From the NCBI RefSeq assembly GCF_003712195.1, contig NZ_RDSD01000014.1, positions 1 through 64,000 of the forward strand: 64,000 bases of DNA, read 5' to 3'. The stretch comes from Proteiniphilum sp. X52 (lineage in GTDB: Bacteria; Bacteroidota; Bacteroidia; Bacteroidales; Dysgonomonadaceae). Numbering within the stretch: position 1 is the first letter of the stretch; every line of letters starts with the position of its first letter. This document shows, in pieces, positions 5,604-44,115 of this stretch. The notes below the pieces were generated by a model. That model was given only the letters and a program-made list of their open reading frames with translations, was not told the origin of the DNA and did no database searches. The position numbers were made by a program, and so were the translations under genes.

Positions 5604-5650
5604 TAATTTGAAATCAGCAGTCTCCAATATCCAAATCCGAGAGCCGACAC

Positions 5651-5702
5651 CCGAGATCCGAGACCCAAGATCCAAGATCCGAGACCCAAGATCCGAGACC
5701 CG
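5651..5702 (+). repeat. Degenerate tandem micro-repeat
   Basis: Repeats of words such as GATCCGAGACCCAA fill the gap between coaBC and the M23 peptidase. They are followed at about 5765-5820 by repeats of CACTTTTCA and CATTTTTCA. No gene or RNA is seen in 5604-5829. Confidence 0.6.
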
Positions 5703-5829
5703 GAATCTAAAGTCTTGGTTCCGTCATCAATCTTAGAAACTGTTTTTAATTCCTCTCTCGGCTCTGATCTTCACTCTTCACTTTTCACTTTTCACTTTTC
5801 ATTTTTCATTTTTCACTCTTAACGATATA

Positions 5830-16285: not shown

Positions 16286-16339
16286 GATTTTCAATTCTGG
16301 CAACGACATAATCCAAGCAAGCTTGTTTTCTGTTCGTAT

Positions 16340-16499
16340 TGCTTAACGAAACAGTTCAATTACATTAGACTATTTCTGCGCTCGGCAAAGTAAATAAATT
16401 CACTTTGCACTTGCTTAACGAAATAGTTCAATTTCATTAGACTATTTCTGCGCTCGGCAAAGTAAATAAATTCACTTTGCACTTGCTTAACGAAATAGT
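16340..16499 (+). repeat. 72 bp tandem repeat, 2.2 copies
   Basis: A 72-bp unit beginning TGCTTAACGAAA starts at 16340, 16412 and 16484. The first two copies are almost identical and the third stops at the tetR stop codon. A single copy in the opposite orientation lies at about 31735-31825 upstream of the serpin gene, and a diverged relative at about 37745-37850. It is an intergenic repeat family with no coding content. Confidence 0.85.
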
Positions 16500-17108
16500 T
16501 CATTTGTTTTTTTGTTGTTCCAGGTGGGCATCTATAATCCGAATCCCTTTGCCGGTCATGATACCCCGTAAAAAATTGATCATCATTGTGTAGAAAAGTT
16601 CTCTAAACGAAAAAGGAGGCTTTTCGAGGTAGGAGGCGCGGATATAAGTGTAGGTGCTTTCTTCTACCAGAAAGGCAGCTACATTCACATTCAGATCCTC
16701 ACGGATATATCCCTCTTCAATCCCCTGCCGCAGGAAATTCCTCAAATCAACATTATTGATCTCGGTATGCCTCCTGATCAGACTGGCAGCCCGAGGATAA
16801 TATTTCTGAATGTCTTCGAAGAATTTCACATTCCAAACAGGTGTATTCTCATGCACTTCGATGATTTTGATAAAAACCTCCACCACATTATCGCATTGGG
16901 CGAATAGAGTTTCAAACATCTCTTTTCTTCTATCTCCAAACCAGAGAAGAGTCGACAACAGAATATCTTCCTTATCTTTGAAATTCTCATACAATGTTCT
17001 TTTAGAGATACCTATAGAGGATGCTATCTCATCCATCGACACATTCTTTATACCGTATTGCCGGAACAGATCACCTGCTTTTTCTATAATTCGTTCCTTT
17101 AATTCCAT
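16500..17108 (-). CDS. TetR/AcrR family transcriptional regulator
   Basis: A 202-residue regulator with a TetR N-terminal helix-turn-helix (residues 5-50: IIEKAGDLFRQYG, SMDEIASSIGISKRTLYENF). The C-terminal ligand domain is of no specific subclass. It stands directly upstream of the tolC-MFP-RND locus on the same strand, separated by 265 nt of repeats. It is therefore probably the local repressor of the pump and responds to a pump substrate. The 3' end of the gene abuts the 72-bp repeat. Confidence 0.9.
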   Translation of the reverse strand: MELKERIIEKAGDLFRQYGIKNVSMDEIASSIGISKRTLYENFKDKEDILLSTLLWFGDRRKEMFETLFAQCDNVVEVFIKIIEVHENTPVWNVKFFEDIQKYYPRAASLIRRHTEINNVDLRNFLRQGIEEGYIREDLNVNVAAFLVEESTYTYIRASYLEKPPFSFRELFYTMMINFLRGIMTGKGIRIIDAHLEQQKNK

Positions 17109-21393: not shown

Positions 21394-21425
21394 TTTGGAA
21401 GTTTCATTTTTAGCCCCTATCTTTG
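21394..21425 (+). promoter_or_regulatory. Consensus-like promoter of a putative ncRNA
   Basis: TTTG (21394-21397), 20 nt spacer and TATCTTTG (21418-21425) match the Bacteroidetes -33/-7 promoter very well. No convincing gene starts behind it. A strong stem begins about 8 nt further on. Confidence 0.7.
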
Positions 21426-21430
21426 AAAAT

Positions 21431-21632
21431 AGAATTGAATGAGTTATTGCCGCATTGGTCGATTGGGAAACTCATCAATTACATTTTATGAACCGAGACT
21501 CGTTTTTGGTATCAATGGCGGGCCGCATCCTCCGGGATTCCGGTTTTACCGGAACAGCGGATTACAAAGATACCGGGACACTCAAATCCTGTCATAAGGA
21601 GTTTCGTCTTATTCCACCGATGCGGCTTTTTT
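21431..21632 (+). ncRNA. Putative structured non-coding RNA, about 200 nt
   Basis: A transcript starting near 21431 would open with a 12-bp stem (21433-21445 with 21469-21480, one bulge). A long-range helix follows, GCCGCATC (21522-21529) with GATGCGGC (21619-21626), directly followed by six T, so the helix doubles as a terminator. Inside it lie hairpins TTCCGG/CCGGAA (21538-21554) and ATAAG/CTTAT (21594-21612). A second strong hairpin is at 21636-21681. An open frame across this stretch (from 21488) runs through both hairpins and resembles nothing known. The sequence is not recognisable as tmRNA, RNase P, SRP or 6S RNA by motif. Function is unknown. Confidence 0.5.
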
Positions 21633-21635
21633 ATA

Positions 21636-21681
21636 AAAAGCAGATTAGCAAGAAGATCTTCTCTGATTGCAATCTGCTTTT
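21636..21681 (+). terminator. Strong second hairpin behind the putative ncRNA
   Basis: AAAAGCAGATT (21636-21646) pairs perfectly with AATCTGCTTTT (21671-21681), with further pairing of GCAA/TTGC and AGAAGA/TCTTCT inside. The A/T-rich ends allow termination on either strand. Confidence 0.6.
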
Positions 21682-21837
21682 CACTTTATATGGAAGATGA
21701 TTCAAGATTTAGCCACGCTGATTTTGGCTCTGCCGAACATTGTTTCAATTCAGATTCAAGATTATGAATTGCAAATCGACGTAATCAAATCGTAAAATTA
21801 TCACATTAGTTTTATCAGTCTCATTGGCACTACATGT

Positions 21838-21852: not shown

Positions 21853-21866
21853 TTAGTCTCATTGGC

Positions 21867-21945
21867 ACATTGACACATTGACACATTGACACATTGACAC
21901 ATTGACACATTGACACATTGACACATTGACACATTGACACATTAG
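21867..21945 (+). repeat. 8 bp tandem repeat, about 10 copies
   Basis: Perfect head-to-tail copies of CACATTGA end 5 nt before the chromate transporter start. Copy number in such arrays can change by slippage, which would alter the leader or promoter spacing of chrA. Confidence 0.9.
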
Positions 21946-39962: not shown

Positions 39963-40058
39963 GGTGGGAAAGTGGAAAAGTGAGAAAGTGGAAAAGAAGC
40001 CCCGATTAGGTAATTGGTAATTGGTAATTAGTAATTGATAATTGATAATTGGTAATTG

Positions 40059-43864: not shown

Positions 43865-43949
43865 AATCCCAGATTCAGAATTTTGAATTGGGTCAACGTT
43901 CGGCGGAGCCAAAATCGGCCTAGTGAAATCATCAACCTCTCTACTTCCC

Positions 43950-44092
43950 AGTTCTAAGTTCTTAGTCCCAAGTTCTAAGTTCTTAGTTCCAAGTTCTCAG
44001 TTATAAGTTCCCAGTTCTCAGTTCTAAGTTCTCAGTTCTAAGTTCTCAGTTCTAAGTTCTCAGTTCCAAGTTCTAAGTTCTAAGTTCTCAAT
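43950..44092 (+). repeat. Degenerate 10 bp tandem repeat
   Basis: AGTTCTAAGT and AGTTCTCAGT alternate for about 140 bp. Low-complexity arrays of this kind recur in other gaps of this window. Confidence 0.75.
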
Positions 44093-44115
44093 TTCCAATT
44101 CCAATCCACGAATTA

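Follow-up and report, generated by a model that had tools for sequence, protein, structure and literature searches.

6S RNA accumulates in stationary phase. The classical form (SsrS; Rfam family RF00013) is described as a closing stem, a large bulge and an apical stem with internal loops, and 6S biology is known to include the sequestration of RNA polymerase and its release through synthesis of short product RNAs, or pRNAs (PMC8414754). Two families from the Bacteroidetes are also close to the RNA considered here, namely 6S-Flavo (RF01685), which Weinberg 2010 counts among the RNAs having the function of a validated class (PMC2864571), and Bacteroidales-1 (RF01693; Weinberg 2010, PMC2864571), which Rfam describes as "6S-Bacteroidales RNA suggested". 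In addition, 6S RNA has been detected in F. psychrophilum (PMC5581868, PMC9723704), and dRNA-seq of B. thetaiotaomicron is reported to reveal the 6S RNA of Bacteroides together with pRNAs of two classes (PMC7366714). RF01693 is not named alongside this RNA in the available text of that report; that the two are the same is suggested by the Rfam label and by their occurrence in one order.

The window, i.e., the whole stretch of 64,000 nucleotides of Proteiniphilum sp. X52 analysed here, contains a member of the second of these families. Positions 21448-21633 (+) match RF01693 over the full length of the model (1-179 of 179) at 138.9 bits (E 3.5e-23), well over the curated cut-off of 60 bits by which membership is judged. 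The preliminary description of this locus had proposed an RNA of unknown role and had named an Rfam hit to a known RNA as the result that would speak against it; the hit to a suggested 6S RNA is such a result. A scan at permissive threshold gave nine further Rfam matches, every one under its own cut-off, among them 6S-Flavo (RF01685), which scores 23.9 bits against the window RNA (E 0.33), short of its cut-off of 85. The covariance model of classical 6S RNA (RF00013) finds no match in the same genome or in any of 296 genomes of the class (this one included), in searches that both matched the control genomes of E. coli and B. subtilis. Thus, the window RNA fills an otherwise empty slot. The earlier statement that the locus lacks 6S motifs holds for the classical model and fails for RF01693, and the miss by RF00013 may be why these motifs went unrecognised. 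The consensus of 69 homologs shows the 6S layout of a closing stem, a large central bubble and an apical stem with internal loops, and the gene stands on its own in the manner of 6S genes, with a housekeeping promoter and usually in single copy. In our judgement the locus is very probably a 6S-type RNA gene, the Bacteroidales version of 6S RNA, and its 6S activity is suggested by the family label, the layout, the homology to 6S-Flavo and the dRNA-seq report from B. thetaiotaomicron. As such, the window copy is ordinary, a housekeeping regulatory RNA that Rfam annotation would name.

Regarding its structure, both the segment 21431-21632 (z -3.5) and the longer 21394-21690 (z -4.8) fold better than shuffled sequences, 0 of 200 shuffles being as good in either case. 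Covariation was assessed on homologs, of which 128 were collected, 98 of them over the Rfam cut-off; a partial match (L042), a locus never added (L142) and a match cut by a contig start (G002) were excluded before counting. Removal of one truncated row, of identical rows and of rows with at least 93% identity left an alignment of 69 Bacteroidales homologs (A1); L105, a match cut by a contig end, is absent from A1 and from the terminator counts outside the genus. A structure of 33 pairs, specified after the alignment was seen, is paired in 93.0% of cells. At 28 of the 33 both sides change, and none of 500 shuffles reaches any of the measures taken; sliding the partners lowers pairing to 40-46%.

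The closing helix joins 21449-21457 (GCCGCATTG) to 21618-21626, with all 9 pairs changing on both sides and 94.7% of cells paired. Beside the central bubble, GAAACUC (21467-21473) pairs with GAGUUUC (21599-21605) in 97.3% of cells; two of these seven pairs change on both sides in A1, and all seven do in a deeper alignment of 104 matches (A2). Having been fitted to the structure, A2 leans towards it, and its last four rows are chance hits that were kept for this helix test and for the model R2 (see below) and left outside the other A2 counts. RNAalifold predicts both outer helices unaided from the 69 homologs, and the structure line of RF01693 in Rfam leaves both unpaired. The 5' side of the central bubble (21474-21494) is unpaired in the consensus, and its 3' side (AAAUCCUGUCAUAAG; 21584-21598) contains several nearly invariant columns and a single predicted pair, column 179 with 194, at the place where the 6S class has a hairpin opposite the 5' central bulge. 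A short inner helix of GAG (21495-21497) with CUC (21581-21583) is predicted, and 2 of the 69 sequences are compensatory at its middle pair; in the deep set, complements of at least 5 bp occur in 56 of 100 rows, against a mean of 31.5 (maximum 38) with swapped partners, and at a minimum of 4 bp the count no longer exceeds that for swapped partners (79 against at most 79). In the apical stem (21502-21513 with 21569-21579) all pairs change on both sides and 88.5% of cells are paired. It leads into an internal loop, AAUGGCGGG, and a helix CCGC (together 21514-21526); the helix has its partners at 21557-21560 and changes on both sides at all four pairs, U21516-G21517 go with 21565-21566, and 8 of the 9 loop columns are invariant or nearly so. 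Opposite lies the conserved GGAUUACAAAG (21559-21569; 8 of 11 columns nearly invariant). The RNA therefore shows what is expected of RF01693, covariation in the apical stem and a conserved AAUGGCGGGCC/GGAUUACAAAG core.

A different long-range helix of 8 bp, GCCGCATC (21522-21529) with GATGCGGC (21619-21626), had been pointed out in the preliminary description. It was rejected because it shows no covariation in the 69 homologs, its score being reached by 259 of 500 shuffles and its paired cells by 212 of 500, and the supported partner of its 3' strand is 21449-21457. Its 74.7% of paired cells do exceed the slid versions (23-50%), since both strands are well conserved. GCCGCATC at 21522-21529 is a second copy, and the 8-mer occurs five times in the window against 2.3 expected. 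Folding of the window copy slightly favours another partner for GAGUUUC (-65.7 kcal/mol, against -64.1 for the GAAACUC helix). Across homologs, GAAACUC/GAGUUUC beats the alternative pairing in 61 of 69, and in 25 of the 69 it is the fold of lowest energy. It is possible that the alternative, CGAGAC with GAGUUUC, represents a released form of the RNA.

Upstream, a promoter of the Bacteroidetes primary sigma type (21394-21425, +) consists of TTTG (21394-21397), a 20-nt spacer and TATCTTTG (21418-21425), by comparison with the consensus given in PMC7366714. This promoter had been pointed out before, and the homologs bear it out: 31 of 34 genus homologs (1.8 expected) and 56 of 63 other homologs above the cut-off (3.9 expected from shuffles) carry TAnnTTTG, the -7 box, ahead of the RNA, one locus with too little sequence (L014) being left out of the upstream counts. 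The TTTG box accompanies it in 31 genus homologs, where shuffles would lead one to expect the pair in 0.04, and in 33 of the others, among which the distance from TAnnTTTG to the RNA varies. Just 5 of 30 homologs below the cut-off have TAnnTTTG (1.0 expected from shuffles), which may be due to diverged promoters or uncertain ends. Three genus loci (L009, L013 and L019) lack TAnnTTTG and yet have a leader resembling TTGAATGAGT, preceded by another sequence that they share in part; judging from these sequences, the promoter was perhaps replaced and the leader kept.

Transcription would start near 21431, leaving a 5' leader (21431-21447) ahead of the Rfam match that is a near-complement of 21469-21480. 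The stem of 12 bp that had been noticed at the start point, AAUUGA-AUGAGUU with AACUCAUCAAUU and one bulged A, is present and forms when the first 60 nt fold alone (-12.5 kcal/mol); in the full-length fold it is open. The leader sequence UUGAAUGAGUU resembles UUGAUGAGUUU, the complement of the 5' strand that leads from the bubble into the helix. Among scored genus homologs, the duplex of leader and strand is better than with shuffled leaders (p<=0.05) in 29 of 34, which come from related genomes and are not independent. Outside the genus, 14 of 42 scored homologs reach this level and 28 fall short. Unscored were one of the 35 homologs of the genus and 21 of the 63 others, in which the box or the motif was missing or the leader too short; in L009, L013 and L019 the 17 upstream bases nearest the RNA served as the leader. 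Within the RNA, this 5' strand is the best target of the leader in just 21 of 34 homologs of the genus and in 7 of 45 beyond it, and the word ACUC occurs three times in the window RNA. The leader pairing seems lineage-specific, found in this family and a few other clades. It is a doubtful proposal that the leader acts as a built-in pRNA mimic, which would pair with that strand in the nascent RNA and hold the precursor in the released, inactive form until trimmed or displaced.

Downstream, a second hairpin (21636-21681, +), already noted in the preliminary description, proves real and is the likely terminator: the stretch 3' of the RNA folds below -16 kcal/mol in all 35 genus homologs, with 3.0 expected from shuffles. 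The looser threshold of -10 kcal/mol is passed by 19.8 of 35 shuffles and is hence too lax. A scan for ungapped stems finds the hairpin in just 6 of 35 genus homologs (2.1 expected) because its stem is bulged in this genus. In the other homologs, a terminator-like hairpin of different sequence occupies the same place in 47 of 62 (14 expected). The run of six T that had been noted at the end of the 8-bp helix is untypical, a U-run following the closing helix in 5 of 35 genus homologs and in 20 of 62 outside the genus, and was rejected as the usual terminator of the genus. Since the hairpin is conserved and the U-run rare, the second hairpin is the most likely site of termination, after which the 3' end would be trimmed back towards the closing helix to give the mature RNA. 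A short AUA-containing spacer after this helix, found in 75 of 97 homologs against 41 expected from shuffles, is a possible processing signal.

RF01693 matches 36 of 37 genus genomes (this one, with its one copy, included), in single copy, and 5 of 24 other relatives; such conservation, along with the pairs that change on both sides, is what the preliminary description had proposed to look for in relatives. Across the order 85 of 295 genomes have one match each (63 over the cut-off), as have 21 of 296 across the class (11 over the cut-off). The conserved pattern of the 3' part appears, among the matches listed (80 of at least 120), in records titled Bacteroides, Phocaeicola, Parabacteroides, Tannerella, Muribaculaceae, Dysgonamonadaceae and others. 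Also among the matches listed is a metagenome-assembled record titled Lachnoclostridium sp. (L202), by name outside Bacteroidota, which has the 6S pattern and is probably a misnamed or mixed bin.

These distributions also bear on the relation between Bacteroidales-1 and 6S-Flavo. RF01685 matches 14 of the 296 class genomes, and in four of them (G080, G211, G313 and G316) RF01693 hits the same place, so that the two families together cover 31 of 296 Bacteroidia genomes. A model (R1) trained on the 69 Bacteroidales homologs, none of them among the 14 6S-Flavo loci at issue, has one match each in 64 of the 296 genomes of the class, and at 10 of the 14 6S-Flavo sites it hits the same place; on the fetched loci, from which G192 was left out, it matches 3 further sites. 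An iterated model built from A2 (R2) matches 134 of 296 class genomes, two of which have a second match, and overlaps every one of the 14 sites. Most of the 6S-Flavo loci were in the training set of R2, and hence R1 alone counts as independent evidence for the union; E-values are rough, the search filters were stricter, and 162 of the 296 genomes have no R2 match. The two families share the elements AAACUCA and GAGUUU, whereas several 6S-Flavo loci do not have the apical hairpins. Collectively, these sequence comparisons make Bacteroidales-1 and 6S-Flavo look like one family that is wider than Rfam says. The literature search found no publication evidently joining the two, and in the literature searched each name was found only in the available text of PMC2864571. 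According to PMC7366714, Wehner 2014 predicted pRNAs in Bacteroidetes, and the union may well be in print there already.

Could the RNA be an independent sRNA that resembles 6S RNA in shape only, serving as a base-pairing regulator or a protein sponge? The absence of an RF00013 match would fit this reading. However, the wide and mostly single-copy occurrence in the class, the covarying 6S-like fold and the homology to 6S-Flavo all argue against it, as do the 6S RNA and pRNAs found experimentally in a Bacteroides (PMC7366714, as far as its text is available), and we consider it improbable. Less probable still is a cis-acting leader or 3'-UTR element, such as a riboswitch or attenuator, of the trpB2 or chromate transporter genes. 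These genes flank the RNA and share its orientation. Of the 35 genus loci, 27 have long flanks and eight do not; 25 of the 27 keep both neighbours, and the remaining two are cut by contig ends. Among 43 long-flank loci outside the genus, by contrast, a single one (L080, of the same family) has them; the neighbouring genes change outside the family, which counts against a cis-regulator, and the RNA has its own promoter type and a hairpin ahead of chrA. Regulation of the flanking genes in cis was accordingly rejected, and the earlier view of an independent non-coding RNA gene gains from the conserved promoter, the covarying structure and the changing neighbours alike. Finally, an intergenic accident or a small coding gene has next to no chance of being correct, since, despite open frames of 52 and 81 codons (21439-21597 and 21455-21700), the covariation is reached by 0 of 500 shuffles and the aligned homologs are set apart by one- or two-base indels, on which grounds a coding gene was rejected.

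Several repeats lie elsewhere in the window. Between the RNA and the start of the chromate transporter gene, 21860-21943 holds 10.5 copies of the 8-mer CATTGACA (98% match); CACATTGA occurs nine times in this array and at most once in each genus relative (26 with flanks), and the array is possibly a recent expansion or a variable spacer. A direct repeat of 435 bp (1-435 and 1232-1666; 98% identity) carries in each copy a minus-strand Rfam match to a group II intron, identical over 71 of 71 bases, pointing to a pair of intron ends or to a nested copy at the edge of the window. Arrays of 7-bp units (CCGAGAC, TTCACTT, GGTAATT and AGTTCTA) are found at 5637-5702, 5770-5817, 40009-40058 and 43945-44104, and 16339-16502 is a 72-bp tandem repeat (2.3 copies, 97% match).

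As a 6S-type RNA, the transcript would act by analogy with its described counterparts. The closing helix, second helix, bubble and apical stem would together imitate an open promoter, so that RNA polymerase with the primary sigma factor would bind the RNA and be kept off DNA promoters; the polymerase would then copy a pRNA from the bubble, upon which the RNA would refold and the polymerase be released. Unlike in classical 6S RNA, the promoter imitated would have to be that of the Bacteroidetes sigma factor. In other 6S RNAs, GG stands at pRNA positions 4/5 or 5/6 (PMC8414754). Read off the sequence, a candidate pRNA from the strand running into the GAAACUC helix, GAUGAGUUUCCC, has no GG at either place, and a candidate from CCGAG (21493-21497), CUCGG, does contain this GG and would start at the far, apical edge of the bubble.

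With classical 6S RNA, then, the RNA shares the layout, from the closing stem through the large bulge to the apical stem and its internal loops, and differs in escaping the covariance model; with Bacteroidales-1 it shares the full-length match and the order, and differs from the Rfam model, which pairs the apical part only, in that covariation supports the closing helix and, to a lesser degree, the one beside the bubble. What the analysis adds is this fuller consensus structure with a covariation-supported closing helix, a separate terminator and evidence for a single family. If the leader did act as a pRNA mimic, 6S activity would depend on RNA processing. The analysis yields a covariance model with which to annotate 6S RNA where, as in this phylum, the sigma factor and the promoters depart from the textbook ones, and it opens the question of how a 6S RNA imitates a TTTG/TAnnTTTG promoter.
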